A stretch of 64,000 bases of DNA from Artemia franciscana (Eukaryota; Arthropoda; Branchiopoda; Anostraca; Artemiidae). The notes beneath the pieces are model-generated. The model had not been told where the DNA came from and did not search any database. It saw only the letters and a list, made by a program, of their open reading frames with translations. Location: contig NC_088865.1 in assembly GCF_032884065.1 (NCBI RefSeq), positions 46,857,583 to 46,921,582 of the forward strand, given 5' to 3'. The position numbers were made by a program, and so were the translations under genes. This document shows positions 3,844 through 57,889 of the stretch, piece after piece. Each line of letters opens with the position of its first letter. The stretch's first letter is position 1.

Positions 3844-4140
3844 TTAAATAAAAAAAACTAGTTTTTTTAACTGAAAGTAAGGAGCGACATTAAAACTTAA
3901 AACGAACAGAAATTACTCCGTATATGAAATGGGTTGTCCCCTCCGCAGTCCCACGCTCTTTACGCTAAAGTTTGACTCTTTGCCACAATTCTACTTTTTA
4001 AAACAATTAAAAACTTTAGCGTAAAGAGCGTGGGACGCGGAGGGGACAACCCATTTCATATACGGAGTAATTTCTGTTCGTTTTAAGTTTTAATGTCGCT
4101 CCTTACTTTCAGTTAAAAAAACTAGTTTTTTTTTATTTAA
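3844..4140. repeat. tail hairpin of copy A, loop orientation type 1
   Basis: Two arms of about 130 bp are near-perfect reverse complements. Each contains the CTTTACGCTAAAG/CTTTAGCGTAAAG apex and the TAAGGAGCGACATT block. A 37-base asymmetric loop (3974-4010), reading GACTCTTTGCCACAATTCTA at its left, separates them. The hairpin reaches the element's last base. Confidence 0.9.
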
Positions 4141-5815
4141 TTATAATATAGACTAATGAGTTGGAAAGTAGAGATCATGGATAAAATTTCCGAGGATCTG
4201 GAAGATACAGCTAGACGGTATAATAGTAAAATATTGTACTGACATGTTAACAAATTAAGAGAGAATAGCCAATCCCGACGTGTCCCAGTCAAAGATAGAA
4301 ACGGGGCCACTATTATTGATAACCAAAGAGTTAAAGAGAGATGAGTAGAATATTTTGAGAATGTGCTTAACTGGGATAGAGCTGCAGAAAAAGATATAGA
4401 GGAAAAGGAAAAAGTTTTAAATACCTTGGACGTGAAAGAAGATTTGTTTTGTGAGGAAGAAATAGCAACAGTACTAAACGGGTTAAAAAAACAAAAACAA
4501 CAAAGCCCCAGGTGCTGATAGTGTCATAAAATAGTTTCTTAAATATGATGGCTTTGAGGTTACAAATAAGCTACCGATAATTGTGGATATGATTTTTGAA
4601 AGAGAGGAAGTACCTAGCGATTATAGAAAAACCCTTAATAAACCTGTGTATAACAAGGGTGATAAGAGTGAGTGTGGTAACTATAGTGGCAATAGCTTGG
4701 TATCTTTAGGTAGCAAATTTCTGAGTAATATGATACTTTCTAGACTGAGACATGCGGTTGTCAAAGTTATCTGAGAAGAACAGTACGGTTTTAGAAAGGA
4801 TAGAGGATGTGACGACCAAATTTTCACTTATAAGTTATTAATTGAAAAGTGCCTGAGTTATCAAACACATTTGGTCCTCAGTTTTATAGATTATGAGCAT
4901 GCATTTGATCCTGTTAAGAGAAGAGCTATAGCAAAGGCCTTCTCCTTGTATGGTATACCAGAAAAATTTAATAAAGTGATTAATGATATGTACGAGCATA
5001 AAACTGCTGCGGTTTAGGTATGGAATGAGTTTAGCAGCTGGTTTCATATTAGTTCAGGAGTTCAGGGTTGTGTTTTATCCCCTTTATATGGATTATTTTG
5101 GTAGACTTTTTCTTAAAGAGCACAGGAAAGACGATGAGAGATCACGGAATGAGATGGGGACGAAAATTTTCCTGGACTTTAGATTATGCTGATAATGTGA
5201 GCATCCTAGATGAAAGTATGAGGAAAATAAATGGGTTTTTTGGGGTTCTGCGAGCTCAGGGCGTTAGAATAGGTCTAAAATTAGTGATAAGAATCCTAAG
5301 TCGCCAATGCTAGGAATAAGTGAAAATGAAAAGGTGACAGCGGTTAACAAAAAGATTGATTAAGTGAACAGCTTCACTTACCTTGATAGTATTATTAGTA
5401 AAGACAATGGGAATCGTGAAGATGTTAAAAGTATGTCAAGACTCAGGGTGTGTTTGGACAGTTGTAAAAAGTTTGAAAGAATAGGAAGATAAGTATGCGA
5501 ACCAAGATTAGAATATTGGAAGCCATAGTGATGATAGTGGTCATATTTGGTTTTGAAGTATCGGCGTCCCGAAAAATGGACCAAAATTTCAAAGAACAGT
5601 CTCTGCGAAAAGTGTAGTTCAATCTCGCTTCTTAGGGATATAAAAAAAGAAAGGTTAAGGTGGCTAGGACACGTTCTGCCGATGAAGGACAAAAGATTGT
5701 TTTTTTAGGGCCAAACGTCTCTGGCTAAACGGAAAGCAGGTCGTCCTCTGTTAGGGTGGGAGGATGTTGTAAAGAAAGACTTAAGGAAAATGAAAACTTC
5801 CTGATTTCAGGAATT
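4141..5815 (+). mobile_element. LINE family 1, copy a, reverse transcriptase part (pseudogene)
   Basis: Degenerate RT of a non-LTR retrotransposon. Recognisable in order are KISEDLEDTARRYNSK (from 4180), the finger motif with GNYSGNSLVSL (about 4672), YGFRKDRGCDDQIFTYKLL (about 4787), the palm strand LVLSFIDYEHAFD (about 4872), SGVQGCVLSP (about 5058), LDYADN (about 5180) and the thumb/tail region GIRVGLK-like then TYLDSI. Stops and frameshifts are frequent. The catalytic YADD box reads YADN, so the second aspartate is lost. Later C-terminal blocks (RLRWLGHVL-like, RKAGRPLLGWEDVVKKD) run to about 5815. This is a dead copy, in intron 1 of the host gene, in the same orientation. Confidence 0.8.
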
Positions 5816-6520
5816 ATAACCAATAATTAAATTACAACCAATACTTATGAGCATTTATAACTATATTCTTTGCTAGATTGCAGTTATCACTGAAACAGTG
5901 GTATAGAAAAACAAGATTATAACTTGGAATGTTACTTTATTCACGGAAAAACCTCTCGGGATCAGTTTGTAGCTTATAATTTGACATCTATTTTGAAATC
6001 TGTATAATTACTACATGTTCTTGCATATATAAATAATTGGAAGTAAAAGGATGAGTGTTTAATTTTTGAATTTTTATTAATTTCTGGGAACGGGAAATCA
6101 ATTACTTCAAAATAGAAAATTCTCAGAAAATCCCCTGGATTGATATTACTACTTTAGTGCATAGAAACAAATGTCTCGGTTTTTTTTATCCTTAGCCATA
6201 TACTTGGGAGGTGTAATAAATAAATAAAACGTTACGCGAAGATCAGGTTAACCTTGTTGTCATTTTAGCATGAGGGTAATACAGTCAACTTTCGTGTCAG
6301 GTAGACATGCAATAATGCATCTTATGTAAATCTTAATTTTTATTTCAAAGTTCGTTTGAAAATTATATTAACAAATGTTGCTCTTCAAATCAGCGTAAAA
6401 AAGGTAGTTTTCATTTGTAAATAAAGCTCTCATAAACATATATACATTTAGAAGTACTTGTATTATTTTTGCACTAAGGATCTTAGGTCAGTATACACGG
6501 AAAAGAGTCCATATTTGATC
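5816..6520. other. AT-rich intronic DNA, no feature seen
   Basis: No open frame, repeat family or RNA signature was recognised between the LINE end and the C-rich block at 6540. Confidence 0.4.
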
Positions 6521-6539
6521 TGTTCTAGGTGTTCATCCC

Positions 6540-14440: not shown

Positions 14441-14507
14441 ATATTAGTAATTCCTATAGCTAGGGTAGCTAGTATAAGTCGTATTTTCTTGCCTTGAGAA
14501 ATGTAAT

Positions 14508-15345
14508 CAAACAGTTCGTGGTAACGAACTATAGTAAGGAGCGATCCGGCTCAATAGTAACCAAAACTCTAAAAAATTGAATTTTGATATCAATAGCTAC
14601 ATCAAAAGAATCGCATTTTAATGCTGATTTTAAATATATAAGTTTCATCAAGTTTAGTCTTACCCATCAAAAGTTACGAGCCTGGGAAAATTTGCCTTAT
14701 TTAGGAAAATAGGGGGAAACACCCCCTAAAAGTCGTAGGATCTTAACGAAAATGACACCATCAGATTCAGCGTATCAGAGATCCCTACTGTAGAAGTTTC
14801 AAGCTCCTATCTACAAAAATGTGGAATTTTGCATTTTTTGCCAGAAGACAAATCACGGGTGCGTGTTTATTTGTTTGTTTGTTTTTTTTTTTGTTTTTTT
14901 TTCCCCAGGGGTCATCGTATCGACCAAGTGGTCCTAGAATGTCGCAAGAGGGCTCATTCTAACAGAAATGAAAAGTTCTAGTGCCCTTTTTAAGTGACCA
15001 AAAAAATTGGAGGGCATCTAGGCCCCCTCCCACGCTAATTTTTTTCCCAAAGTCAACCGATCAAAATTTTGAGATAGCCATTTTGTTCAGCATAGTCGAA
15101 AATCATAATAACTATGTATTTGGGGGTGACTTACTCCCCCACAGTTCCTGGGGGAGGGGCTGCAAGTTACAAACTTCAACCAGTTTTTACATATAATAAT
15201 GGTTATTGGGAAGTGTACAGATGTTTTCAGGGGGATTTTTTGGTTTTGGGGGTAGGGTTGAGGGAGGGGCTATGTGGGAGGATCTTTCCTTGGAGAAATA
15301 TGCCATGGGGGAAAAAATTCAATGAAAAGGGCGCAGGACAAATCT
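14508..15345 (+). mobile_element. hairpin-tailed repeat, copy B (tail missing)
   Basis: Close to copy A from its head palindrome (14511-14532) through the poly-T tract, the GTGACCAAAAAAATTGGAGG block and the GGTTATTGGGAAGTGTACAG block, then stops at about 15345. The distal half and the terminal hairpin are absent. Confidence 0.8.
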
Positions 15346-15672
15346 GGTCACGTTAGAAAAAACGTCAAATTCAGAGCTTAATATACAATGCTGGGTGTTC
15401 GGAGCCTCTCTATTATGGAGTATAATTTGAAAATAACACAACTATATGAGCGATAAAACATATATACCACAACCATAACTCAACTAACGAAAGAACTGCT
15501 AAGAGATAACACAACTATAAAGCGAAAACAGGTGAAAACTAACGGGAAAATAAACGAACTAAGAGGTGGAAGGGGCCCAGAGAAAAAATATAATCAATTT
15601 TCAATTTTGTGCCTAACTTCCGCAAAGGAGTAATAATGTCAGAAGCCCCAAAATACCGAATTATTTTCTTTT

Positions 15673-16774
15673 CAAACAGTTCGTGGTAAAGAACTCTAGT
15701 AAGGGGCGACCCGGCTCAATAGTAAACGGAACTCTAAAAAACGGAATTTTGATGCTAAAAGATACATCAAAAGAATCGAATTTTCACGCTGATTCTAAAT
15801 ATATAAGTTCCAATTAATTTAGTCTTTGTCATCAAAAGTTACGAGCCTGAGAAAATTTGCCATATTTTGGAAAAAAGGGGGAAACATCCCCTAAAAGTCA
15901 TAGAATCTTAACGAAAATCACACTATCGCATTCTGCATATCAGAGAACTCTATAGCAAAAATTTCAAGCTCCTATCTAAAAAAATGTGGAATTTCATATT
16001 TTTTGCCAGAAGACAAATCACGGGTGCGTGTTTATTTGTTTGTTTGTTGTTGTTTTTTTCTTTTCCCCAGGGGTCATCGTATCGACCAGGTGGTCTTAGA
16101 GTGTCGCAAGAGGGCTCATTCTTACGGAAATGAAAAGTTCTAGTGCCCTTTTAAATGATAAAAAAATTGGAGGGCAAATAGGCCCCCTCCCACGCTAATT
16201 TTTTTCCAAAAGTCAACAGATTAAATTTTAAGATAGCCATTTTGTTCCGCATAGTCGAAAACCATAATAAGTATGTCTTTGGGAATGACTTACTCCCCCA
16301 CAATTCCTGGGGGAGGGGCTGCAAGTTACAAACTTTGACCAGTGTTTACATATAGTAATGGTTATTGGGAAGTGTACAGACGTTTTAGCCAAAAAAAATT
16401 AATATACTAATTTCATTTCAATAATTTATGTGCGGAGAGCCAAAATCAAACATGCATTAATTCAAAAACGTTCAGAAATTAAATAAAAAAAACTAGTTTT
16501 TTTAACTGAAAGTAAGGAGCGACATTAAAACTTAAAACGAACAGAAATTACTCCGTATATGAAATGGGTTGTCCCCCCCTCAGTCCCTCGCTCTTTACGC
16601 TAAAGTTTGACTCTTTGCCACAATTCTACTTTTTAAAACAATTAAAAATTTAGCGTAAAGAGCGTGGGACTGCGGAGGGGACAACCCATTTCATATACGG
16701 AGTAATTTCTGTTCGTTTTAAGTTTTAATGTCGCTCCTTACTTTCAGTTAAAAAAACTAGTTTTTTTTATTTAA
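15673..16774 (+). mobile_element. hairpin-tailed repeat, copy C (internally deleted)
   Basis: Head palindrome at 15676-15697 (slightly mutated). Shared body to about 16385, then a jump of about 650 bp relative to copy A straight into the tail (AGCCAAAAAAAATTAATA). The tail hairpin is complete at about 16478-16774; its loop (16609-16648) has the same orientation as in copy A (type 1). Confidence 0.8.
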
Positions 16775-17705
16775 TGAAAGAAAGGGGTGATATCGAACTC
16801 CTAGATACCATTTTTGGGAGATGTCCAATAGTTAATAAGTGACTTTGACTTTATTGAATATAAACACACAAATAAAACACAACTCCAGGGACTGGTCAAT
16901 GATCCCTAGGGCCTAAATGTAGCCCCTGGAGAATGTGGATTATTCATATAAACATCACTGATTATTGACAGAAAAACGAAGTGTTAAACTTTGAAACGGA
17001 AAGAAGACTGAAAAAGGCACTGTGCACTACAGAAAAAAAGAAAGAACCCTCCTAAGCATTATTTATTAGTATTGGTAGAAAGAAGAATTTTTTTATAATT
17101 GTATCAAAATGATGGAACTGAAACAGAATATTTTACTCCCAGCGGAATACTCTTCAATAATATCACTCAAACGTATTCTAAGGTCAGAATTTCTAAGATC
17201 ATCAAAGGTTAGTGCCATTTGGATATGGACAGGGTGGATGTATATAGTTGTCAAGAGCCACTAATCTCCTTTTACATATCAAAGTCCCGAATTTCCGTCA
17301 TAGGAGTATATTTATTATTTATATAGTTGCCATAAATTATTGTATAGGTTTTATTACCTTTCAAAGTATAGTTGAAAGATCACTGTAAATAATTTTTTCC
17401 AGACACCACAAACCCAATGAACGGCTATATGTGCAGTTAGAGTTAAACTAAATTGCCTTATCTTAATTTCTGTCTGACTGCAAGATCCTTCTTCTTGATT
17501 GAATTTTTCGAACTAATAAAATTCACCCTGTCTGCTTGGCTACTTTCGTTGTGATTCTATAACATAAGTGAAGTTTCATTATATTTTTTTTAACTTTTTT
17601 CAATCTGAGCTTGTAATAAGGATGCGATATCCTGCATCTAGATTTTAGAAGCCGGAAGGGGATGCTCACAAAAAAGGTTTCAGAATATTGTCTGTATATA
17701 TTATC

Positions 17706-30600: not shown

Positions 30601-31472
30601 GAAAAACATAGTACTTATAATAAGATTTAGTTTTTATTGCAAACATAAGCAAATTGAAGCGGCCAAAACTGCTACTGCTTTCCATTGAAGGATATCCATG
30701 CCCATTGACATTGACTATTGAACTTTCCAACGATGCCGAATGAATTTGTTTTAGACCGGATGTTTCTGAAGAAAAAAGAGCTTGGGAGGGGGAAGGATAG
30801 CTGCAATCCAGTCTGTTTGGTCATTTAAAAGGGCTCTAGAATTTCAAATTACTGATTGAATGAGTACTCCTTTCGATCTTCTAACATACACCATATCTAA
30901 CAAATAGCAATAGGGCAAGAAAAAGTAAATATAGATAATAATAGTGGGCTTTTTGAAACGAATCGAATGACACTCCAAGTCAGTCAAGTTGTTTTGGCAA
31001 AAGTAAACTGAAATTCGTAAATCTGCTACACTGACAAACTGATACCCTAATGGTAAAACTGAAAACTAATATAAAATAAGGCCTATATTTGTTTAACCAT
31101 TTTAATTAGCATCAAACCGCTAGATTTATTTTCTTTTTATTAATGAGCCAGCCAAACTTGGGTGAATAACCCAATCAAGTTATAACTGCAAATACCTTAG
31201 AATATTCTTAAGCTGCTAGACCAGTTTGGGAACTAGCCTACCTTAAAAACACACACTGGTAGCATAACTAAGGGTTGAACAGTTATTGATTAGACTGAAG
31301 ATTGTATACGGAGACAGTGAAGTATCTTATTTTCGTAGTGGGCTTTCCGATAATTTTGAAGGAAATATTTTCAATCCTTATGATCTCTAGATTTTCTTTA
31401 TTTTCCCCTAGTTTTTATGAATAAATTGTAATTTACTATGTGTCTACAAGTCGCAGTCCTTTTCTCTAAGAA
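30601..31472. other. intergenic DNA, no feature seen
   Basis: AT-rich with no recognised coding or repeat. Confidence 0.35.
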
Positions 31473-33191: not shown

Positions 33192-33261
33192 ATAAAGTCA
33201 AGCATCACTGTCATTTCACAATATTTCCTGATGTGAATTAGACGGTCTATGTTAATAAAAA

Positions 33262-33864: not shown

Positions 33865-35310
33865 CTTAAAATTTGATAACGTAGAAGATGGATGGAATGA
33901 CTTAAAAAAAATAGTTTGTGAAGCCAATGCAGCGTCTCAGGGAAAGATAATTTGGAAACACAGTTAGGAATAGCAATAAAGTACTTTATGCCTGCTGGAG
34001 AGGAGAAGGGAATTGTACAAGAATTATTTGAGTGATATATCATGCGAGAACAAAAGAATGTAAAGCAGGCGAAGAAAGCCTTAAAACTTGGAGTAAGGAG
34101 GTGCAAAGCAGAGGTTACGTATAGAATTATTGACGATCTATTCAGTACTGCCAGCGGTATAATAGCAAAAAATTGTACTGGCATGTTAATAAATTGAGAT
34201 GGAAATAGTCAATCTAGGCTTGTCCCAGTTAAACAGAGGAACGGGGTCAAGATTAGTGAGAAGGAAACAGTTTAAGAGTGATGGCAGAGTACTTCAAGAA
34301 TGTGCTAAACAGTGATAGAGTCACAGGAGAAGGTGTAGAAGAGAAAATAAAAGTTCTTGACGCCTTAGATGTGAAGGAAGAATTTTTTTATGAAGAAGAA
34401 TTTGCGACAGTACTTAAAAGATTTAAAAATAATAAAGGCCCTGGGTGCTGATGGTGTGGTTGATGCGCTTTTTAAATATAGTGGTTTTATGTTAGAGACA
34501 AGTTACCGAAGATTGTGAATATAATTTTTGTAAAGAAAGTATCGAGTGATTGTAGAAAATCTCCAATTAAGCCCCTCGATAAAAAAAGTGATAAGAGTGA
34601 GTTTGGTAATTATAGAGGCATTAGCCTTGTTTCTATAAAAAGGAAACTACTTAGCATGATGAAAGTCTTAAGACTTAAAGATCCTGTGGATAAAGTTTCA
34701 AGAGAAGAGAAGTGTGGTTTTACGAAGTGAAAATGATGTATAAATCAAATTTTTAACTCAAACTGATAACTGAGAAGTGCTTTGGTAATCGAACCCCTTT
34801 AGTCCTCAGTTTTATTGGTTATGCGCAAGTCTTTGCTTCAGCGGATAGAGGAGCTTTAGCAAGGGTCCAATCGTCGTGTGGCATACAAGATAAATTCATA
34901 ATATTGCTTTGTATTATTTATGAAAATAGCATTGTTTTGGTTAAGGTAGGAAATGAGGTTACTTACTGGTTTCGTATTAAATCAAGAATAAAAGGAGTTA
35001 AGCAGAGTCGCCTTTTATCCCTATTTACATGGAGTGTTCCGATGGACTTTGTCCTAGGGAGTACAGCAAAAGCAATTGGGGAACGGAGTCAAATGGAGTC
35101 GACAGAAGACGGAGTCAAATGGGGAAGTAAAACTCTCCAACACTTAGACTATGCTGATGATTTAAAAAGTGTAAAGGAAAATTTTAGGAAAAGGAATGGT
35201 TCTTTAGAGGTTTTATGACTTCAGGCTGCAAGAATATGTTTGAAAATAAATGTCAAGAAGACTAAGTCGCTAAGACTAGGGATAAGTAAAGGTGAAAAAT
35301 ATATTTATAC
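33865..35310 (+). mobile_element. LINE family 1, copy d (RT pseudogene)
   Basis: Begins in the endonuclease-RT linker (DNVEDGWNDLKKIVCEANA). It continues through [10 protein letters not shown] (34605), a broken fingers region, RIKGVKQSRLLSLF (about 34982) and the active-site box LDYADDL at about 35143-35163, here intact. It then reads RICLKINVKKTKSLRLGIS and ends near 35310. Several stops and frame changes make it non-functional. It aligns with copy a over nearly the whole length, which fixes where copy a was interrupted. Confidence 0.75.
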
Positions 35311-35368: not shown

Positions 35369-35530
35369 TTATGAATCTGAATTAGTTTAAAATGATAAAT
35401 ATAGTTATAATAGTCATCTGTGTTGTCCTACTGTCTATTTAGATGAAAGAATAGAAAGGAAACAATATTGTATCACTAATAAGAAAATTTTATGTTGCCC
35501 ATCTTAAGCATATCTCCATATCCCACCATA
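35369..35530 (+). repeat. inverted repeat arm, left copy
   Basis: About 160 bp are the reverse complement, with some 85-90% identity, of 42295-42467. The arm holds the last codons of an unrecognised Cys-containing frame (YESELV, then HLCCPTVYLDER), followed by CACTAATAAGAAAATTTTATGT and CATATCTCCATATCCC. It adjoins the (TA)n tract. Confidence 0.75.
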
Positions 35531-35537
35531 ACCATGT

Positions 35538-35734
<197 letters not shown>

Positions 35735-36205
35735 TTTATTCACACGAAAGCCTTATTGGGCCACGATGACATACACAAAACAAGCGAAAAAATACTGAAA
35801 CAAAACATAGACTGAAAAGACACTCAAACTAATTATGTAAGAAAATCATCACGATACCTCATACCTCCCAGGACGAACTTTCCAATATTATCTATACTTA
35901 AGTAACACCTACTTCTAAAATTTCTGAAATCCAATCTCTCCCCCGACCTCCCTACCAAATGTTTCTAAGCGTAACTTCCTTAACTCCCTACAATCCCCTA
36001 AAAAATGATTAAAAGACTCTTCCATCTCTCCACCCATAGAGCAACTGTAAGGACCGTCCCTCATTCTGTTTCTCCCTAAATGTTTTCTACGTTCTACAAG
36101 AGGTATAAAATTCCCCCTTACATACATTACCCATTTCAAATCTTCCGGAGCCAACCCATTTTTAGGTAAATTTCTTCGCCCCAGTTCTCCTGAACCTCCG
36201 CATAT
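35735..36205 (-). mobile_element. LINE family 2, 3' part
   Basis: Third surviving block of the - strand retrotransposon. It reads CGGSGELGRRNLP, LVERRKHLGRNRMRDGPYS and EESFNHFLGDCRELRKLRLE: a Cys/His cluster with a 'E..FNHFL..C...R..R' ending seen in many non-LTR ORF2 C-termini. It ends in a short 3' UTR and AATAAA beside the (TA)n tract. It is separated from the preceding block by copy E. Confidence 0.7.
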
Positions 36206-37970
36206 CAAGCAGTTCGTGGTAACGAACTGTAGTAAGGAGCGACCCGACTCAATAGTAAATGAAACTCTAAAAAACGGAATTTTGATGCTAAAAGATACAT
36301 CAATAGAATCGAATTTTCATGCTGATTCTAAATATATTAGTTTCATCAATATGAAAATATAAATATATAAGTTTCATCAAATTTAATCTTTGTCATCAAA
36401 AGTTACGAGCCTGAGAAAATTTGCCTTATTTTGGAAAATAGGGGGGAACACCCCCTAAATGTCAAAGAGTCTTAACGAAAATCACACCATCGCATTCAAC
36501 GTATCAGAGAACTCTACAGCAAAAATTTCAAGCTCCTATCTACAAAAATGTGGAATTTCGTATTTTTTGCCAGAAGACAGATCACGGGTGCGTGTTTATT
36601 TGTTTTTTTTTGTTTTTTTTTTCTCAGGGGTCATCGTATCGACCAAGTGGTCCTAGAGTGTTGCAAGAGGGCTCATTCTAACGGAAATGAAAAGTTCTAG
36701 CGCCCTTTTTAAGTGACCAAAAAATTAGAGGGCACCTAGGCCCCCTCCCACGCTCATTTTTTCCCAAAATCAATGAATCAAAATTTTCAGATAGCCATTT
36801 TGTTCCGCATAGTCGAAAACCATAATAACTATGTCTTTGGAATGACTCACTCCCCTACAGTCCCTGGGGGAGGGGTGCAAGTTACAAACTTTGTCCAGTG
36901 TTTACATACAGTAATGGTTATTGGGAAGTGTACAGACGTTTTCAGGGGGATTTTTTTTGGTTTGCGGGTGGGGTTGAGGAGAGTGGACTATGTGGGAGGA
37001 TCTTACCTTGGAGGAATATGTCATGGGAAAAGAGAAATTCAATGAAAAGGGTTCGGGATTTTCAAGCATTAATATAAAAAAACAATGAAAAAATAAACAT
37101 GAAAAAGTTTTTTCAGCTGAAAGTAAGGAGTAGCATTAAAACTTAAAACGAACAGAGATTATTACGCATATGAGGGATTCTAAAAATACTTTAGCATAAA
37201 GAGCGAGGTATTTAGGAAGAGATAAATGCCTTGCTCTTTATGCTAAAGTATTTTTAGAAATTTCAACTATTTATTCTCCGGCCTTTCTGATTCAGAGTCA
37301 TTCTTAAAGAATTGGGACAAAACTTAAGATTTAGTGTAAGGAGCGAGGTATTAACGAAGGGACAAACCCCCTCATATACATAATAAAAAATATAAGAATA
37401 TATAAGTTTGTTACGTAAGTTAATTCTTAAGTTACGTATATTTTTTTACTAATAAAAACGTTCGTTAAAAAGTAAAAGTTCTAGTTGCCTTTTTAAGTAA
37501 CCGAAAATTTGGAGGGCAACTAGGCCTCCTTCCCCACCCCTTATTTCTCAAAATCGTCTGATCAAAACTAAGAGAAAGCCATTTAGCCAAAAAAGAATTA
37601 ATACGAAAATTTCATTTAATAATTTATGTGCGGAGAGCCAAAATCAAAAATGCATTAATTCAAAAACGTTCAGAAATTAAATAAAAAAACAGGTTTTTTA
37701 AACTGAAAGTAAGGAGCGACATTAAAACTTAAAAAAAAACAGAAATTACTCCGCATATGAAATGGGTTGTCCCCTCCGCAATCACTCGCTCTTTAAGCTA
37801 AAGCTTTTAATTGTTTTAAAAAGCAGAATTGTGGCAAAGAGTCAAACTTTAGCGTAAAGAGCGAGGGATTGCGGAGGGGACAACCCATTTCATATACGGA
37901 GTAATTTCTGTTCGTTTTAAGTTTTAACGTCGCTCCTTACTTTCAGTTTAAAAAACTAGTTTTTTATTTA
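36206..37970 (+). mobile_element. hairpin-tailed repeat, copy E (complete, ATAT duplication)
   Basis: 1765 bp from CAAGCAGTTCGTGG (head palindrome 36209-36230) to TTTATTTA. It lies in the LINE on the opposite strand, with ATAT at 36202-36205 and 37971-37974. Counting one ATAT, the LINE frame is continuous across the site. The body has a small local duplication of ATATAAGTTTCATCAA (36345-36380). The tail loop (37804-37844) is the reverse complement of copy A's loop (type 2). Confidence 0.9.
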
Positions 37971-37974
37971 ATAT

Positions 37975-38658
37975 CCCAAGGGACGGTGAGGTGGCCTTCT
38001 CAGCTTGCCAAACCTGAACTTCCTTAGACTCTAGCCTAGTAGCAACTAACATAGATACAGTCCCTACAACTATCCTACCCCCTTTCCCTCATTACAGAAA
38101 TCACCTAGCCCTGCACGGTCTAATATATTCTTCACCTGATTTGGCCACGAATCCTTCCTCCTATCTTGAAGCATCATTAAAAATGCTTGTCTAACTAGCC
38201 TATTATCTTCTATCAATGACACCCTTTCCCAATATTTAACCATACTATTTAACCTACTCTGTGTCATACACTTTATTTCTATATCCCCTCTCTGTACTAA
38301 CCAGTTAAACTTATTATAATGACCTAACATACGCTTAAAAGACCTCAACTGCTAAACCCCCAAAGCTCCGCCCCGTATTGCAAAGCCGATCTAACCCTAG
38401 CGTTTAAAATATACTCTAGCAGTCCTAAATCCCTAATTTCCTTAATACTACTTTTACTTAACAATCCTAGTGGTCTATTTCTCTTACTTTCTACCATCTT
38501 GAGATGCTTCTTCTATTTCCCATCTGACGAAAGCCTACAACAGAAGTACTGAAATTCTTCAACATAGTCTAGTGTCCTATCTTCATACATAAATTGACAC
38601 TGCGAATCTATCTGTTCTCCACTTTTCCTAAGAACCATTATCACCAAGTTATTTTTTT
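37975..38658 (-). mobile_element. LINE family 2, middle part
   Basis: On - it reads MVLRKSGEQIDSQCQFMYE then LDYVEEFQYF, the thumb region after the RT active site. It continues with LLEYILNARVRSALQYGAEL, MRSFKRMLGHYNKFNWLVQR and DRRKDSWPNQVKNILDRAGL. The order is correct for the ORF2 C-terminal half. It lies between hairpin-tailed copies E and F. Confidence 0.75.
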
Positions 38659-38660
38659 AA

Positions 38661-40403
38661 TTAAATAAAAAAAACAAGTTTTTTAAATGAAAGTAAGGAG
38701 CGACATTAAAACTTAAAACGAACAGAAATTACTCTGTATATGAAAGGGGCTTTTCCTCCTCGACACCCCGCTCCTTACGCTAAAGTTTTTTATTGTTTTA
38801 AAAAGTAGAGTTGCGAAAAAGAATCAAACTTTAGCGCAAGGAGCGGGGTGTCGAGGAGGAAAAGCCCCTTTCATATACGGAGTAATTTCTGTTCGTTTTA
38901 AGTTTTAATGTCGCTCCTTTCTTTCATTTCAAAAACTTGTTTTTTTTATTTAATTTCTGAAAGTTTTTTAATTAATGCATGACTGATTTTGGCTCTCCGT
39001 ACATAAATTATTAAAATGAAATTTGCATATTAATTCTTGTTTTGGCTAAATGGCTTTCTCTTAGTTTTGATCAGACGATTTTGAGAAATAAGGGGTGGGG
39101 AAGGAGGTCTTGTTGCCCTGCAATTTTTCGGTTACTTAAAAAGGCAACTAGATCTTTTATTTTTAACGAACGTTTTTATTAGTAAAAAAATACGTAACTT
39201 AAGAATTAACTTACGTAACAAACTTTTATATTCTTATATTTTTGATTATATATATGAGGGGGTTGGTCCCCTCGTTAATACCTCGCTCTTCACACTAAAT
39301 CTTGTTTTATCCCAATTCTTTAAGAATGACCCCTGAATCAGAAAGGCCGTAGAATAAATAGTTGAAATTATTTTAAAAAATTTTAGCATAAAGAGTGAAG
39401 TGTTTATCTCCTCCTAAATACCTCGCTCTTTATGCTAAAGTATTTTTAGAACCCCTCATATGCGTAATAATCTCTGTTCTTTTTTAAGTTTTAGTGCTTC
39501 TCCTTACTTTCAATTGAAAAAACTTTTTCATGTTTATATTTTCATTGTTTTTTTTTTTAGTAATGCTAGAAAGTCCTGCACCCTTTTCATTGAATTTCTC
39601 TTCCCCCTTGAAATATTCCTCCAAGGAAAGATCCTCCCATATAGCCCCCTCCCCTGAACCCCACACCCAAACCAAAAAAATCCCCCTGATAACGTCGGTA
39701 TACATCCCAGTAACCATTACTGTATGTAAACATTGGTCAAAGTTTGTAACTTGCAGCCCCTCCCCCAGGAACTGTGGGGGGTAAGTCATCCACAAAGACA
39801 TAGTTATTATGGTTTTCGACTATGCGGAACAAAATGGCTATCTCAAAATTTTGATCCGTTGACTTTGGGAAAAAAATGAGCGTGGGAGGGGGCCTAGGTG
39901 CCCTCCAATTTTTTTGGTCACTTAAAAAGGGCACTAGAACTTTTCATTTCCGTTAGAATGAGCCCTCTTGCAACACTCTAGGACCACTTGGTCGATACGA
40001 TGACCCCTGGGAAAAAAAAAAAAAAAAAAAAACAAAACAAATAAACACGCACCCGTGATTTGTCTTCTGGCAAAAAATACGAAATTCCACATTTTTGTAG
40101 ATTAGACCTTGAAATCTTTTCTATAGGGTTCTCTGATGCGCTGAATGCGATGGTGTAATTTTCGTTAAGATCCTATGACTTTTAGGGGGTGTTACCCCCT
40201 ATTTTCCAAAATAAGGCAATTTTTCTCAGGCTCGTAACTTTTGATGACAATAACTAAACTTGATGAAACTTATATATTTGAAATCAGTATAAAAATCCAA
40301 TTCTTTTGATATATCCTTTAGCATCGAAATTCCGTTTTTTAGAGTTTCGTTTACTATTGAGCCGGGTCGCTCCTTACTACAGTTCGTTACCACGAACTGT
40401 TTG
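38661..40403 (-). mobile_element. hairpin-tailed repeat, copy F (complete)
   Basis: Reverse-oriented copy of about 1743 bp inserted in the same LINE as copy E. The tail hairpin (38661-38953), secondary hairpin (39365-39447) and poly-A tract (40012-40031) come before the head palindrome (40379-40400). In element orientation the loop (38788-38826) is type 1, as in copy A. No clear target duplication was found. Confidence 0.85.
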
Positions 40404-40404
40404 A

Positions 40405-41570
40405 TACTAGTTTCTCATTCTTAAAGTAACAAGATGCTAGATCTAGCAGTTGTTGCAAATGTTATTTACTTTCCACTACTAGTGCTATGTCATCCGCAAA
40501 AAATAATGCTATAACGCTTGCACTTGAAAGCTTAATTATTGGGGTGCCTCTGCATATCAAATATTCTTCAAAATTATTTATATACAATGAAAATAGTCTT
40601 GGGGAAATTGTACATCCCTACTTAACACCAAGTCTACTCCTAGAAACCCTAGAGAAATCCTTTCCTACCCGTACTACAATCTTGACTATATTATACATAG
40701 ATGCTATAGTCTTAACAAATACCCTAGGTAGCCCTAGTGCTAACAATGACTCTATCATTAAACATATATCCACTCCATCAAACGCCCCTTTTGAAGCCAA
40801 AAATGCAGCAAGTAGCCTTTCTCTTTTCTCCTAACCTGTTTCCCAATCATCCCTAATAAAAATAAGAATCTGATCTATAGGATTCTAGCATTTTCTGAAC
40901 CCTGCTTGCGAATCTGATAAAATTCTATTTTGGTCTATCCAACTATCTATCCTACAACATAATATCTTAGCAAAAACCTTACTAAGCACATTACTTAGGC
41001 TTATACCTCTATAATTCCCATGGTCTAATCTACCCCCCATTTTAAATAACGGTACTAGAATAGACGTAGCCCAAGACAAAGGCCATTCTGCACTGTTCAA
41101 TATACCGGAAAACATTCCTGCTATAACAGGCAGTAGCCATACCCGTCCCAACTTCCAAAGTGCGGCTGGTATTCCATATATACCTGGAGAACACCCAGCT
41201 CTCATTGCTTTCATTGTCTCCCAAACTTCACTTACTTGGATGGGAGCAACCAAATCGTAATTAAATTCTTTCATTGGCCTATCAACTACATCACGTACTG
41301 CAGATACCAGAACTACAGTCAAACTAGTTCCCGTTTGGTTCCTAATCATTTCATTTTCTCTCTCCTCTAAATATGTAGGCCAAGAATCTACTGCTAGAAT
41401 ACCATCATAAGCCTTTATTCCTCCTGTAGAATTTTTAAATCTACGCCAAAAGGTCCTAATATCTTCTTCTCTATAATCTTTCTTCAGTTGCTCTCCTCTC
41501 CTAATTTCATGCTCTTTTTTCTTAATCTCTAACATTTTCTTATACTTATTTCGAATCAACTTATAATCTA
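40405..41570 (-). mobile_element. LINE family 2, RT part
   Basis: The first 224 codons are open (41559 to 40888). They hold [20 protein letters not shown], then [20 protein letters not shown] and [15 protein letters not shown], the RT fingers. After a frameshift near 40885 the frame reads LAAFLASKGAFDGVDICLMI (palm A region), GCTISPRLFSLYINNF and the catalytic FFADDIALVV (about 40485-40515), with both aspartates kept. It stops in LASCYFKNEKL where copy F is inserted. Its 5' side adjoins a (TA)n tract, so the element is 5'-truncated. The family differs from family 1 in wording. Confidence 0.8.
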
Positions 41571-41588
41571 TATAAAATCTAGTATTTT

Positions 41589-41716
<128 letters not shown>

Positions 41717-41879
41717 TAGGTTTTATCCTCCCCCCCGTCAATTTGGAGTAACTCTGTTTACTCGCTCCATTGGGTTTAGGCCTAATGGAGTTTCTTAGAA
41801 TTCCTAGAAGGCTTATTGAAACTTTTCATATTCCTTTACTTGTTTAATTTTCTCGTGGTGGTCTAGGAGCTGCGTAAAG

Positions 41880-43869: not shown

Positions 43870-44328
43870 ATGGGCCTCATAGATACATTGCGACATTCTA
43901 AGAGCACTGGGTGGATGCGATAACTCCTGGGAAAAAGAAAAACAAAAAACAAATAAACCACGTATCTGTGATCTTTCTTCTGGCAAAAAATTGAAAATTC
44001 CACATTTTTGCATATAGATTCTTGAAACCTCTACAATAGGGTTCTCTGATACGCTGAATCTGATGTTGTGATTTCCATTAAGATTCTATGACTTTTAGGT
44101 GGTTTTCTCCCTTTTTTGAAAATAAGACAAATTTTCTCAGGCTCTTAACTTCAATTAAACTTTAATTAACTTTATTTAGATTAAAGTTAATTAAATTTAT
44201 ATATTTAAAATCAGCATAAAACTTTGATTTTTGATGTATCTATTGGTACCAATATTCTGTTTTTTAGCGTTTTGGTTATTATTGAGCCGGGTTACTACTT
44301 ACTTACAGTTCTCACCACGAACTGTTTT
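43870..44328 (-). mobile_element. hairpin-tailed repeat, copy G (head half)
   Basis: Reverse-oriented head part with a mutated palindrome at about 44306-44327. It runs through the TCAGGCTC and TTCTTCTGGCAAAAAA blocks to about 43870. The rest is missing. Confidence 0.7.
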
Positions 44329-44335
44329 ATACTAA

Positions 44336-45720
44336 ACGCAAACATTATGGGCAAATTTCATAATTTATAGGCCTTGTGGTATATAACACCTCGTTCACCT
44401 CGACACATAAACATCTCATTCTTCACGCTAAACTGTTTCTTAGTACTAATGTACTTAAACCAATGTTACCTATTGTAATTATACTTAAGGGCCTTAATGC
44501 AACATGTAAACGATATTGGTGAATTTTGCAACTTATAGCCCTTTCTACTATATGAATGTTGTTATCCCCTCCTAGAAACCTCCCTCTTCATGGTAAATTA
44601 TTATTTATTACTTTAATAATCATCTTAATGGTCTAAATAAGTGACCCTTGTGTTTTAGGGGCCGTTATTAATGAATTGGGACAAAATCCAAGCATTAGCG
44701 CAAAGAGCGTGATTTTGAGGAGCGGAAATTATTCCGTTTGTGAAGGATTGCCCTATCCTCAATACCTTTCTCTTTACGCTCTAGCTGCATTCAAGAGGAG
44801 AAAGCCCTTTATGTACAGAATAATTTCTGTTTGGTTTGACTTTTAGTGTTGCTCCTTACCCTCAGTTAAAAAATCTTGTTTATTTATTTAATTTCTGATC
44901 GTCTTTCAAATAATACCGGTAAATCTGCCTCACTCTCCATGAAATATACCACCCCCTCCACCTTCACAGGAAAATCCTCCGGGGAATTTCATCTAACGTA
45001 TAGTGCACCCCTCCGTCAAATTCTTTCGAGACAGTTACCTCCTCTCTGATAATTCTCCCCCCCCAGGTAAAAATTTCTCGCAGACGATTCAGCATGAAAA
45101 ATTCTTCTTATCATACTTCCATTTGAATAAAAGGCTTTAATTTCTAATTGGTCTCTCAATCACTCTGGATATACTGCCTTCCGTTGAAACTTTTCCGGAA
45201 ACCCAAACATGCTGGAAATAACCCCCGGACACTTCCCGCGGAACATCTCCTCATGCAGACTTGATTTGGCAAAGGGAATATTAGACAGACAAAAAGTATT
45301 TTGTATAGGAATTTGCCAAATTCCCCCTGTGAAAAATTTCCCTTGGAAAATTCACCCCCAGAAAGTTCCCTCCCCAAAGGAAATCCTCCCTATTGAAATC
45401 CACCCCAAGCACCAAATTCCCCCCCCCCCCGAAAATGCCTGTATAAATCCCAATAGCTAATACTATGCGTAAACAATTAGAAAATTTTCATAACTTACAG
45501 GCCTCTCCCCATGGACTCTGGGGGGTCATTTTACCCTAAAGACTTAAATATTTGACCTTTCAACTATACTGAACAGAGTGACTATCTCAAAATTTTAATC
45601 AGATAAACTAGGGGATAAAAAGGGAATGGAGAAGGGTCAGTTGCCCACCAATCTTTTTAGTCACTTAAGAAGGGCATTTCGATTCATTCAACCCTGAAAA
45701 AAAAAATTAAGGCAGGACGG
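44336..45720 (-). repeat. old divergent hairpin-tailed copy (tail and middle)
   Basis: A worn tail hairpin (GCGCAAAGAGCGTGA... to CTCTTTACGCTC, 44690-44890) precedes C-rich middle-region text (GGCCTCTCCCCATGGACTCT at about 45501, GTCACTTAAGAAGGGCATTT at 45660). Many indels. The head is lost. Confidence 0.5.
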
Positions 45721-48955: not shown

Positions 48956-49275
48956 AAAAAATGTATTAATCCAAAAACGTTCAGAAATAAAATGAAAAAA
49001 AACAAGTTTTTTAACTGAAAGTAAGGAGCGACATTAAAACTTAAAACAAGCAGAAATTACTGTGTATATTAAAAGGTTTTCTCCCTTCTCAACGCTCTGC
49101 TCCTTACGCTAAGGTTTTTTACTGTTTTAAAAAGTAAACTTGAGAAAAAGAGTCAAACTTTAGCGTAAAGAGCAAGGTGTTGAGGGAGGAAAAGCCCCTT
49201 TGATATACGGAGTAATTACTGTTCGTTAATTTTGCTCCTTACTTTCAGTTAAACAACTTCTTTTTATCATTTTAT
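48956..49275 (+). repeat. solo tail hairpin of the hairpin-tailed family (copy H)
   Basis: Only the last 320 bp of the family are present: GTATTAATCCAAAAACGTTC, then both hairpin arms around a loop at 49117-49156 of type 2. Copy I begins only about 40 bp further on. Confidence 0.8.
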
Positions 49276-49312
49276 TTCCAACATAAAGCGAACTTACCAG
49301 TAGAGGTAATTT

Positions 49313-51002
49313 CGAACAGTTCGTGGTAACGAACTGTAGTAAGAAGTGACCCGGCTCAATAGTAACCAAAGCTCTAAAAACAGAATTTTGATATCAAGAG
49401 TTACATCTCAAGAATCGCACTTTTATGCCGATTTTAAATATGTGAGTTTCATCATCAAGTTTAGTCTTACCCATCAAAAGTTACGCCCCTGAGAAAATTT
49501 ACCTTATTTTCGAAAATGGGGGAACCCCCCTAAAAGTCATTTAATCTTAAAGAAAGTAACACCATCAGATTCAGCGTATCACAGAACCTTATTGTACAAG
49601 TTTCAAGCTCCTATCTACAAGAATGTAGAATTTTGTATATTTTGCCAAAACACAAATCCCAGGTGCGTGTTTATTTATTTAATTCTTTTTTCCAAGGGTG
49701 ATTGTACCGACCCAGTGGTCTTAAAATTTTGCGAGAGGGCTCATTCAAATGGAAATGAAAAGTTCTAGCGCCCTTTCTAAGTGACCAAACAAATTGGAGG
49801 GCAACTAGGCCCCCTCCCACGCTCATTTTTTCCAAACGTCGTCCGATCAAAACCCTGATATAGCCATTTTATTCAGCATAGTTGAAAAACCTTATAACTA
49901 TGTCTTTCAGGACGACTTACTCCCCCAAAGTCCCCATGGGAGAAGCTGCAAGTTAAAAACTTTGACCAGTGTTTGCACATAGTAATGATTATTGGGAAGT
50001 GTACAGACGTTTTCAGTGGGATTTTTTGGTTGGAAGGAGGGGTTGAGAAGAGGAGGTTATGTTGGGGAAACTTTCCATGGAGGAATTTGTCATGGGGAGG
50101 AAAATTTTCCATGAATGGCAGGGGGCCGGATTTTCTAGCATGATTTAAAAAAACAATGAAAAAATAAATATGAAAAAGTGTTTTCAACTGAAAGTAAGGA
50201 CCAGCGGTAAAACTTAAAACAAACAAAAAATATTACACATATAAGGGGTTCATTTCCTCTTAATCTCTCACTCTTTACGCTAAAGTATTTTTTAGTAATT
50301 TCAATTATTTATTCTACGGCCTTTGTGATTCAGGGGTCATTCTTAAGGATTTAGGACAAAATTTAAGCTTTAGTGTAATGAGCGAGGTATTGACAAGTAG
50401 GCGAGCCCCCCTTATATACGTAATAGATACCTGCGAATATAGAAGTTCGTTAGGTAAGCTAATTCGTAAGTTACGTATATTTTTACTAATGAAAATCATC
50501 GTAAAAAACTAAAAGCTCTAGTTGCCTTTTTAAGTAGCAAAAAATTGGAGAGCAGCTGGGCCTCCTTCCCCGCTCATTTTTCTCAAAATCGTTCGATCAA
50601 AATTATGAGAAAGCCGTTTAGCCAAAAAATAAAAATTCAAATTTCGTTTTAATTATTCATCTGCACAGAGCCGAAATCAAAACATGGATTAACTAAAAAA
50701 CGTTCAGAAATTAAATAAAAAACGAATTTTTTCAAATGAAAGGAAGGAGTAACATTAAAACTTAAAACGGACAGAAATTACCCAGTATATGAAAGGGGCT
50801 GTTCCCTCCTCAACGCCCCGCTCCTTACGCTAAGGTTTTTACAGTATTAAACAGTAGAGTTGAGAGAAAGAGTCAAACTTTAGGGTAAAGAGTGGGGCGT
50901 TGAGGAGGAAACAGCCTCTTTCATATACGGGATAATTTCTGTTCGTTCTAAGTTTTAATGTTGCTCCTTACTTTCATTTAAAATACTTGTTTTTTTATCT
51001 AA
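49313..51002 (+). mobile_element. hairpin-tailed repeat, copy I (near complete)
   Basis: Head palindrome at 49316-49337. The body has more substitutions than copies A-F. The tail hairpin lies at about 50707-51002 with loop 50837-50877 in type 2 orientation. No clear target duplication. Confidence 0.8.
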
Positions 51003-51459
51003 TCATTAAAAAGTACAATTACTCGAATAAAAATTTAAATGATAGTTGAGATGCAACTGAATTTGGGGCACGGATTTTTACTTTGAATTTGATTTTAGGG
51101 AGTCAAGTGAGACTTAATTTTTCTTGGAATTTGGTTAGTAATTTCCGTTGGAATTTGGTAAATCGACACGGGTCTGTTTAGAGGGCATTTTCTGTCATGC
51201 CCCAAAGGATTTTGTAAAGTTTTGAAATACTTGGCTTTCCTGATTGGTAGTTCCAGGACAGTTTTTGGCTTGGTTACATACATAAATAAAATTGGGTGGT
51301 TTAATCTGACAATGAAATACAACAAACTTTCGGTTAGATCGTATAATTTCCACTTCTCACCCATTTCTAGCTATATTTTATATTTTATTTCATATTTTAA
51401 TTACCCTACATCGCTCACTACTCTACATATTAGTTGACGCATTCCGAATAGCAACATCC
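51003..51459. other. leader of the Mutator/YqaJ-type remnant, no clear coding
   Basis: AT-rich stretch between copy I and the coding remnant. No terminal repeat was recognised. Confidence 0.35.
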
Positions 51460-52734
51460 ATGCACAATCTAAGATATACTCGATTTGTTGCCGACGGCGA
51501 TTCGATTACCCATTCTGAAATTATAGCAAGGGTACCATATGGCAGAAATATAGAAAAAATTGAGTGTGCTAATCATGCGTGCAAATGCTTGGAAAACAGA
51601 CTATATAAGAATCAGCATGAAAATGCCGAATGCAGAAGATTTCTTAGTGCTGCAATAATAAAGAAATTGTGTGATTTTGCCAGAAATGCAATTGCATGTG
51701 CCACCACAGAGAAGAAAAGCGTGAAGGACCTCATCATTGCGCTGAAGACAATTCCTCTCCTTTTTTCCCGTGGCGACCATAGATTTTGTCCTACACGCTG
51801 CTCGTTTTCCGGGAAAGTTCTACAGGTCAATCCTGAAGACACCCCTAGCATACGACGTAAAAACTGTCTGCTAGAAAGCGCCTTTTCACTAATGCTTCCA
51901 CAAAACTCCCTTCAAAAGAAATCAGGGAGCCAACCGGAGCAGACAAAAACTACGGCTCGAACGCAACTGCTCCGGATCTTGATTGCAGTGCGCTCGAAAT
52001 TGCAAAAACAGATTTTTTTACTCGTCTCCAATGTACTGCAACAGAAATCCTCAGTATTGAAAAAGCCACTAGGCTTCAGAGAAATCCTATCGATAATAAC
52101 TGGATAGAATACAGAAAAAACAGAATCACAGCTTCCGTAGCTGGTGCTGTTTGTAAAAGGCGGTTGAAGACTGTGGGTTCATTAGTTCGGCAGCTGCTGT
52201 ATCCCAGAAACCACCAAACAAAGGCAATGGAGCATGGTCAGATGTATGAGCCTGTATGTAGCTATTGCAGCTTTTGTAAAGAAAATGGGTTGCATTGTGA
52301 ACTCTGCTGGGATTTTCATTCAAAAGGAATATGGGTTTCTAGGGGCCAGTCCGGGCGGGATAGCAATTTTTCCTTCGGGTGAGAAGGCTCTTTTGGAGGT
52401 GAAGTGCCCTTTGACAGCAAAAGGGCTTACATTGGAAGAGTGGATAGCGCTTAAAAATATATGTCTTGAAAAGAAAGTTAATAGTGAAATAAAGCTGAAA
52501 AGAACACATGACCAAGTTCAAATGCAATTGGAATGTTGTGACATTGATTTTGTATACTTTGTAATATTTTTAGGGGAAGAGGAATTATATTATGAAAAGA
52601 TTGGTCGTGAACGTGAATTCTGGTCTAACAAAATGCTGCCAAATCTACAAAAATTTTATTTTGAGGCACTGTTACCAGAAATTGTCGACGGAAGGTTGCC
52701 AAGAAGTATGGAGATACGAGAACCGTTTATATAA
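51460..52734 (+). pseudogene. Mutator-like transposase/YqaJ recombinase-type element remnant
   Basis: The first part reads LRYTRFVADGDSITHSEIIA, VPYGRNIEKIECANHACKCL and a Cys/His-bearing FSRGDHRFCPTRC, matching the C-terminal end of Mutator-like transposase-domain proteins. After a frameshift around 51880-51950 it reads NNWIEYRKNRITASVAGAVC and EHGQMYEP, then after another near 52235 AIAAFVKK, FLGASPGGIAIFPSG, ALLEVKCPLTAKGL and HDQVQMQLECCDIDFVYFVI. This is the YqaJ PD-(D/E)xK nuclease fold, closing at a TAA (52732-52734). The EVK pair is kept, but the Asp expected in 'SPDG' is Gly. With two frameshifts the copy is dead. Copy J is inserted about 120 bp downstream. Confidence 0.75.
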
Positions 52735-52859: not shown

Positions 52860-54294
52860 GCTAAACAAAAAAAAAAACAAGTTTTTTTTTAACTGAAAGT
52901 AAGGAGCGACATTAAAACTTAAACGATCAGAAATCACTTTGTATATGAAAGGGGCTGCTCCCTCCTCAACGCCCCGCTCTTTACGCTAAATTTTTTTACT
53001 GTTTTAAAAAGCAGAATTGAGAGAAAGAGTAAAACTTTAGCGTAAAGAGCGGGGCGTTGAGGAGGGAGCAGCCCCTTTCACATACGAAGTAATTTATATT
53101 CGTTTTAAGTTTTAATGTTGCTCCTTGCTTTCAGTTAAAAACATGTCTTTTTTTATTTAATATCTGAACGTTTTTGAACTAACGCATGTTTTGATTTTGG
53201 CTCTCCACAGATGAATAATTAAAACGAAATTTCATATTTATATGGCTTTCTCATAATTTTGATAGAATCACTTTGAGAAAAAAGGAGCAGGGGAGGAGGC
53301 TTAGTTGCCCTCCAATGTTTTGGTTACTTAAAAAGGCAACTAGAACTTTTAATATTTTACAAACGTTTTTGCTAGTAAAAGATCTATGTAACTTACGAGT
53401 TAGTTTACGTAACGAACTTCTGTATTCTGTTAGTGTTAAATTTTAATGCTGCTCCTTACTTTCAGTTGAAAAAACTGTTTCATATTTGTTTTTGTATTGT
53501 TCTATTTTGAAATAAGGCTAGAAAATCCTGCGCTCCCTTCATGGAAATTTTCTTCCCCATGACAAATTCCTCCATGGAAAGTTCCCCCAACATAACCCCC
53601 TGTTCTCAACCCCCCCCCCAACCAAAAATCCTCCTGAAAACCTCTGTACATTTCCCAATAACCATTACTATATAAACACTGATCAAAGTTTGTAACTTGT
53701 AGCCCCTTCCACGGGGATTCTGGTGGAATAAGTCGTCCCCAAAGACACAGTTATAAGGTTTTTCGACTATGCTGAATAAAATGGCTATCTGACAATTTTA
53801 ATCGGGTGACTGTGGGAAAATAATTAGCGTGGTTGGAGGCCTAGGTGCCCTCCAATTTTTTAGATCACTTAAAAAGGGTGCTATATACTTCATTTTTTAT
53901 ATATAATTCACTTGTATATAACTTCATTTCCGTTGGAATGAGCCCGCTCGCAACATTCTATGACAACTGGTTCGATATAATCACCCCTGGAAAAAAAATC
54001 CATATTTTTGCTGATAGAAGCTTAACACTTCCACGGTAGGGTTCCCTGATAGGCTGATTTTGATGGGTGTAATTTTGGTTTTATTACTTTTATCGGGTGT
54101 TTCCCTCTATTTTCTAAAATAAGGCAATTTTTCTTAGACTCGTAATTTTAGATAGGTATCTCATATATTTAAAGTCAGCATTAAAATGCGATTTTGTTTA
54201 TGTAGCTATTGGTATCAAAAATCCGTTTTTTAGAGTTTTGGTTACTATTGAGCCGGGTCGCTCCTTAGTACAGTTCGTTACCACGAACTTTTTG
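52860..54294 (-). mobile_element. hairpin-tailed repeat, copy J (TTAT duplication)
   Basis: Reverse-oriented. The tail hairpin (about 52864-53160, loop 52991-53033, type 1 in element orientation) is followed by the body and the head palindrome (54271-54292). ATAA at 52856-52859 and 54295-54298 is a 4-bp duplication (TTAT in element sense). The body is shortened around 53430 by about 250 bp relative to copy A. Confidence 0.8.
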
Positions 54295-54298
54295 ATAA

Positions 54299-56600: not shown

Positions 56601-57215
56601 GGATCTGATATCCGTCCGTGAGTCGTTTTGCGTTAATAAAAAATAGCATCAGCGGGAACCAAAGGCAAAAGGTAACGTCGTAAGTAGGATGTAAAAAATT
56701 CATAAGTTTTGGTGAAAATCTGCTGGTTGAGCCTGAAGACCTAAAATCTTTGGCAAAACAGTGAATTGGAGAACTAAAGAAGTTTTTGCCTTTAAAAGTT
56801 GGTAGTTTTGGCTATTAAGGAAAATGATTGTTGCTGCGTCTTAATAAAGGCATGTGGGCTCTTCCCCGTGAACTATACGATTAAAGTTTCATAAAATTTA
56901 TTATACACACATAGATTTCGAGATGAATGATATTGAGAAGTGAAATTTCAGTACCACTTTTCCCAGAGATACAAAATATTAGAAAAAGTTGTTATTTATT
57001 TTGGACGTACCTACACAAATAATATATTCTAGTTCTTTTAGGAGAAGAAGAGAACTTTGTGGGTCGAAGAAGGATAATTAGATTTTAATGGGTTGTTAGT
57101 CGTTTTAATGGGAACTTTGCTTCCTTCATTACTAACAAAAGATAAAGTCACTGCAGACTGACATATAAAAAAACCTTTAACTAGCTTTAAGAATGCGTTA
57201 CCGGTTGAAAAAACC

Positions 57216-57889
57216 ACTATTTATTCTACGGCCTTTGTGATTCAGAGGTCATTCTTAAGGAATTGGGACAAAATCTAAGCTTTAGTGTTAAAGAGCGACG
57301 AAGGTTGAACCCCCTCATATACGCAATAAGAACATACGAATATAGAAATTCGTTACGTAAGTTAATTTGTAAGTTACGTATATTTTTTACCAATGAAAGC
57401 GTTTGTAAAAAATTAAAAGTTCTAGTTGCTTTTTTAAGTAGTCAAAAACTTGGAGGGCAACTAGGCCTCCTCCCTCACTCCTTTTTCTCAAAATCTTCCG
57501 ATTAATTGCAATTAATTAATATGAAAATTTCGTTTTAATTATTTATGTGCGGAGAGTCAAGATCAAAACATGCATTAATTCAAAAACATCCAGAAATTAA
57601 ATAAAAAAACTAGTTTTTTAAATGAAAGTAAGGAGCAGCTCTAAAACTTAAAACGAGTAGAAATTATTCCGTATATGAAAAGGGGCTTTTCCTCTTCAAC
57701 GCCCCGCTCTTTACGCTAAGGTTTCTTACTGTTTTAAAAATAGAGTTAATAGAAATAGTCAAACTTTAGCGTAAAGAGCGAGGCCTTGAGGAGGAAAAGC
57801 CCCTTTCATATACGGAGTAATTTCTGTTCGTTTTAACTTTTAATGTTGCTCCTTACTTTCATTTAAAAAAACTTGTTTTTTTTATTTAA
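57216..57889 (+). mobile_element. hairpin-tailed repeat, copy M (tail third)
   Basis: 5'-truncated at ACTATTTATTCTACGGCC. The complete tail hairpin lies at about 57597-57889 with loop 57722-57762 in type 2 orientation. Confidence 0.8.

Follow-up and report, generated by a model that had tools for sequence, protein, structure and literature searches.

A 64,000-bp stretch of the Artemia franciscana genome (hereafter the window; contig NC_088865.1, positions 46,857,583 to 46,921,582 of the forward strand in assembly GCF_032884065.1) contains numerous copies of one mobile family, which from its sequence looks like a very abundant, non-coding rolling-circle transposon of the Helitron2/Helentron type. 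Alignment of nine tails in element orientation shows that each ends in a palindrome of 286–303 bp, with arm identities of 71–98%. Copy A (2384–4140, plus strand) is a full element running from its 5′ TCAAACAG to a 3′ TTTAA, with a tail palindrome at 3842–4142 whose arms are 97.7% identical. A composite element (14507–16773, plus) consists of head module B (14507–15338), a 330-bp spacer (15339–15668), a second head at 15672, an internally deleted body, and the tail of copy C (palindrome 16478–16775). Copies D (31472–33195, minus; palindrome 31471–31767), E (36203–37972, plus; 37673–37975), F (38655–40406, minus; 38659–38955), I (49298–51006, plus; 50710–51003), and J (52869–54298, minus; 52869–53154) follow, together with the 5′-truncated copies H (48957–49277, plus) and M (57216–57907, plus; palindrome 57596–57890). 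Copy G (43888–45676, minus) is degenerate and was left out of the loop-orientation scoring.

At the center of each palindrome is an asymmetric loop, whose best match to its own reverse complement covers only 16 of 37 positions, and it occurs in two orientations, designated F and R and read in element orientation as decided by the direction of the body. The loop is F in copies A (3974–4010), C (16609–16648), F (38788–38826), and J (52991–53033), and R in copies D (31601–31639), E (37804–37844), H (49117–49156), I (50837–50877), and M (57722–57762), with the flanking sequence keeping the same direction throughout. The strand was also read independently by BLAST with the body of copy A as query, which places D, F, and J on the minus strand and A, C, E, I, and M on the plus strand; the call for the truncated copy H depends on ~30–40 bp of body flank. 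The first-pass annotation had placed the nine loops at these coordinates and relative orientations with their flanks unturned, and both the tail alignment and the BLAST body directions bear this out. It had also described the loops of copies A and E as reverse complements with about one mismatch; there is exactly one, and the two copies share 87.5% identity across 1,798 aligned positions.

All 93 body-oriented palindromes from the window and from loci fetched elsewhere (duplicate loci included) score as F or R with none ambiguous, and another seven lack a body by which to orient them. Once duplicates are removed, the set numbers 83 copies (54 F, 29 R); the 84-row set used for the tree includes one duplicate (L005_1070 repeats L042_1184). 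The 54:29 split is no estimate of the genome ratio, because 30 of the loci were picked with an F-only pattern (128 genome matches, copy A not among them) that was not used for ratios. Exact patterns anchored in the body and counted across the 1.27-Gb assembly (6,468 contigs) give 3,066 F and 7,556 R; reversed-pattern controls give 0 matches. Two flank variants lie beside the palindrome, and each was counted with each loop. Type 2 (ACATGCATTGATT) occurs with 225 F and 4,534 R loops, or 95.3% R (4,534/4,759), and type 1 (CATGCATTAATTC) with 2,308 F and 1,233 R loops, or 34.8% R (1,233/3,541), such that the odds of orientation are 38-fold apart between the flank types (chi-square 3,496). The first-pass annotation had thought that perfect tracking of orientation with body subfamily would undo its idea of an isomerizing end; the tracking is not perfect, since each flank type contains a minority of the opposite orientation.

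The association of orientation with lineage is also seen in two young subfamilies. Subfamily A-F comprises 11 rows with loop F and a body close to copy A throughout, and its head could be read in 10; subfamily A-R comprises 21 rows, picked for loop R and a flank identity of 97% or more (one pair, L053 and L054, has the same flanks), with the spacer searched for in 20 loci. All 10 readable A-F copies have a simple head and are F, and all 20 A-R loci examined have the 330-bp spacer before a second head and are R. Because the A-R rows were selected as R, the fair statement is the cross of head type with orientation, 10/10 and 20/20. The A-F and A-R consensus sequences have the same arms (0 of 112 positions differ) and an exactly inverted loop, and across ~725 bp of 3′ body they are separated by five substitutions. 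Their 3′ modules are 99.3% identical and their 5′ halves 89.9%, with a sharp switch near position 735. No flips are seen among the 32 young rows (one pair of which shares flanks), giving an upper 95% bound of ~9% per copy.

The composite arrangement moves as a unit elsewhere in the genome, since the spacer is in 20/20 A-R loci, and the same spacer precedes a second head in L043, L051, and L012. Composites in L043, L051, and copy C of the window have loop F and different inner arms, and the identity of L043 to A-R exceeds its identity to A-F in both halves (94.4 versus 88.1% in one, and 97.8 versus 97.4% in the other). We infer from these that F was probably ancestral and R derived in A-R. The module switch near position 735 is close to the internal-deletion point of copy C. 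Heads lying directly after the 3′ end of another copy (TTTAA and then TC) are seen among L041, L046, and L051, and L051 also has two heads 26 bp apart; these arrangements are tandem or nested insertions.

On a body tree of the 84-row set, 11 orientation changes are needed, where shuffled orientations need a mean of 24.4 and none of 500 shuffles gives so low a number; well-supported branches alone force at least three changes. With the long and partial rows and the duplicate removed, the 77 rows that are left need 10 changes on a tree whose total length is 2.45 substitutions per site, or very roughly 4 flips per substitution per site in this F-biased sample. A supported clade joins copy D (R) to three F copies, two of which came from the F-only pattern, and this mixture, together with the 35% R share of flank type 1, implies that flips happened repeatedly. 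Whole subfamilies inherit one orientation, and flips are rare. Counting orientations against the body phylogeny had been proposed in the first-pass annotation, and of the two outcomes it envisaged the clade link is found, and a near 1:1 ratio independent of clade is not (3,066:7,556; 11 changes against 24.4 shuffled).

The two arms of the palindrome change in concert. In the 77 of 83 copies compared (the six from which the arms could not be cut were omitted), the left and right arms within a copy diverge by a median of 2.7% and a mean of 5.5%, and the same arm compared between copies diverges by a mean of 8.9–9.5%. In the consensus sequences for A-F, for A-R, and for the D clade (three copies), left and right arms agree at all 112 positions. 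Twelve arm positions differ between the A-F and D consensus sequences, and all 12 are changed in both arms. Over all pairs of 11 groups, 379 positions are changed doubly and 662 singly or otherwise, the latter mostly in comparisons that involve one- or two-copy groups with 7–15 mismatches. Fourteen copies carry an inner C/T mismatch (the C being the third base of the arm), and it keeps its side relative to the loop in all of them: the right arm in 12 F copies and the left arm in two R copies. The mismatch moves with the loop, so inversion extends beyond the loop into the arms; its inheritance by 12 F copies also means that transposition does not rebuild the arms every time. A direct repeat of the left arm, older and degenerate, lies within copy A (3232–3339 versus 3819–3927) and has its own small palindrome (3346–3423), which suggests that earlier 3′ ends have been retained inside the element.

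Several terminal features bear on the identity of the family. The 5′ TC is present, and the head contains a hairpin, CAGTTCGT-GGTA-ACGAACTG, with a 9-bp stem (−12.9 kcal/mol); a head was found in 64 of the 83 copies. A 12-bp subterminal repeat, AGTAAGGAGCGA in copy A, lies ~20 nt into the head, adjoining the hairpin rather than inside it, and its reverse complement, TCGCTCCTTACT, is in the right arm near the 3′ end; the exact repeat is present in 30/64 heads and 64/83 tails. Beside the 3′ end is a short AAAAAAACTAGTTTTTTT-like A/T stem with a central CTAG, identified by pattern in 59/83 copies, and the 300-bp palindrome that surrounds it is extra relative to the corresponding feature of HINE elements. 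The whole 3′ module (~130 bp) is duplicated and inverted around the ~40-nt loop, and because it is present twice in inverted order, the 3′ end of the element is the palindrome itself.

Integration is Helitron-like. The 3′ TTTAA is followed by T in 72/72 readable 3′ ends, and the base preceding the 5′ end in 41 non-composite heads is A in 26, G in 8, and T in 7; this pattern is closer to the canonical Helitron insertion between A and T than to the TT or T-rich sites of HINEs. The canonical (Helitron1) combination of a 5′ TC with insertion between A and T is present only in part, with A on the 5′ side in only 26/41, and the canonical 3′ CTRR is absent, the 3′ end being TTTAA. Three cases in which one family copy has inserted into another (L067, L014 at 1688, and L052 at 3124) were compared by eye with the family body; taking out the insertion restores the host sequence, and no target-site duplication is seen. 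Copy A itself is inserted into a decayed reverse-transcriptase-like element (2000–2380 and 4150–5000; frame read by eye), and a related stretch lacking the insertion is at 33960–34200 of the window; comparison of the two reveals no long duplication.

A Pfam search of the nine window open reading frames of at least 120 amino acids found no Helitron domain. Genome-wide, 150 of 7,435 first-look candidates were scored for Helitron_like_N (PF14214); the matches listed are above the cut-off, with open frames of up to 2,091 amino acids. The genome thus has many Helitron Rep domains, and elements that encode them are candidate autonomous partners that may supply the mobilizing protein. A published account of the A. 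franciscana assembly attributes 8.81% of it to rolling-circle elements (PMC11492255), and our literature search found no paper on non-autonomous Helitrons in Artemia.

We think it reasonably probable that the loop inverts by template switching between the inverted-repeat arms. The 3′ end is an inverted duplication with arms of ~130 bp and a loop of ~40 nt, and the nascent strand may now and then, while a copy is being replicated and presumably outside transposition, copy for a time from the other arm, reached through the sister strand or a fold-back, before it returns. Such a switch would re-equalize the arms, and one passing across the center would invert the loop and the innermost arm bases. 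A flipped copy would still be able to transpose, and its descendants would inherit the new orientation. Arm homogenization together with spacer inversion has been described as the outcome of template switching at inverted repeats (PMC8604942, PMC8794818). The first-pass annotation had named recombination between the arms as the simpler alternative to a hairpin-ended replicon, and rare recombination or copying does fit the clade-linked orientation, the repeated changes on the tree, and the joint change of the arms.

A number of observations sit uneasily with rare template switching. When divergence is taken from only the 370-bp 3′ flank, orientation is discordant in 41% of the 81 pairs that diverge by under 0.5%, and the clade link is visible only after reading the 5′ module; because A-F and A-R share the 3′ flank, statistics from that flank alone would mislead toward random flipping. 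Flank type 1 is 35% R, so in the history of the family the loop has flipped, or palindromes have been exchanged between flanks, more than very rarely. Homogenization is far from complete, since 7–15 arm mismatches are present in single-copy clades and in one clade of two copies (L029/L033). The spacers and arms reported in yeast (PMC8604942) are much shorter than these, and no parent-daughter pair was seen.

Other ways of inverting the loop account for parts of the same data. A reciprocal homologous crossover between the arms, inverting the loop in place while a separate gene conversion homogenizes the arms, would likewise produce a precise inversion that breaks within the arms and is then inherited by clade, and arms of ~130 bp are able to pair. 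We regard it as unlikely, since it needs a second process for arm homogenization, whereas template switching yields both; a loop of ~40 nt is also short for recombination between arms that share one duplex.

Between any two copies, either arm of one matches both arms of the other, so the palindrome of one copy could also replace that of another in inverted register by ectopic conversion or recombination. Exchange of modules is common in the family, as in the A-R composites, whose 5′ half is 89.9% and 3′ module 99.3% identical to A-F, yet the loop is inverted between A-F and A-R while the arms and adjacent 3′ body are unchanged. Since only the loop is inverted, the donor would have to be nearly identical and an event within one element is simpler, and we consider ectopic replacement quite improbable. 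We are equally doubtful that the transposition machinery produces the flip at a low rate. Because the left arm repeats the 3′ terminus of the element in inverted form, Rep could occasionally cut there, at the arm's outer edge on the opposite strand, and the fold-back end so released would be rejoined or recopied inverted. Were this so, rolling-circle elements would have a rare terminal isomerization that founds new subfamilies.

Parvoviruses, including adeno-associated virus, have an asymmetric terminal palindrome in two orientations, both of which arise at each replication, and the first-pass annotation had likened the Artemia loops to a hairpin end that flips and flops at every round. Both orientations are indeed abundant and transposition-competent and the element end is itself a palindrome, but such per-round flipping of a hairpin-ended intermediate is scarcely credible given that the F:R ratio is far from 1:1, that the R share differs by flank type (95% versus 35%), that the 11 A-F and 21 A-R rows are fixed within the ~9% bound, and that the inner arm mismatch is inherited; in the Artemia element, unlike those viruses, orientation is inherited by subfamily. 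We therefore reject a hairpin-ended replicon with lineage-independent 1:1 flip/flop on the genome counts, the body tree, and the two young subfamilies, a clean negative that is useful in itself. Misassembly is similarly far-fetched: a ~300-bp palindrome exceeds short-read length and could be mis-resolved, but the errors would be random, and orientation agrees with head type ~1.6 kb away in 30/30 young copies and with flank type in thousands.

The systems nearest to template switching as proposed here are coding inverted repeats in yeast (PMC8604942) and RNA hairpins (PMC8794818), which in the published descriptions share arm homogenization, precise spacer inversion with the arms unchanged, repeated and reversible events, and inheritance of the flipped form. 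Those have arms of ~7–16 bp and very short spacers and are single loci or ribosomal RNA, whereas the Artemia family has arms of ~130 bp and a loop of ~40 nt, is mobile, and has more than 10,000 counted copies. Two things are unusual: so large a terminal palindrome, and a record of such events in more than 10,000 copies. These anchored copies in one genome constitute a binary record of how often a palindrome center inverts and how arm identity is maintained, and with the body phylogeny as a reference they make it possible to measure how frequently template switching occurs at long inverted repeats. They also illustrate that a rolling-circle transposon can bear a 300-bp palindromic 3′ end with its loop in either orientation and still amplify.

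Among mobile elements, HINE and DINE-1 (PMC4067079, PMC7492417) are described as similarly non-coding, with a 5′ repeat and complementary partner forming a hairpin, a T-rich stretch, a 3′ subterminal inverted repeat, a short 3′ palindrome, no target duplication, and insertion beside T. In these accounts, Helentron-associated non-autonomous elements have a 3′ subterminal repeat of 11–15 bp that is inverted relative to the 5′ one. The 3′ palindrome of mite HINEs is a 5–10-bp stem, whereas the Artemia element has its whole 3′ module duplicated in inverted order and, unlike HINEs, a host base before the 5′ end that is mostly A rather than T. The non-canonical Helitron2-type elements FoHeli1/2 of Fusarium (PMC5148889) share the 5′ TC, the starting hairpin, multiple 5′ termini in some elements, a 12-bp inverted repeat (38–51 bp from the 3′ end in FoHeli1/2), and an AT-rich, non-CTRR 3′ terminus. 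They differ in encoding Rep/Hel and in ending in ATTTT rather than TTTAA, and a 300-bp terminal palindrome is not among the features given for them in the excerpted account (PMC5148889).

Between copies I and J, the plus strand of the window encodes a Mutator-like transposase domain (PF20700, E 2.6e-14) at 51460–52107, followed at 52234–52734 by a YqaJ-like nuclease domain (PF09588, E 7.3e-5). Long runs of AT dinucleotides are present at 35528–35739 and 41562–41726.

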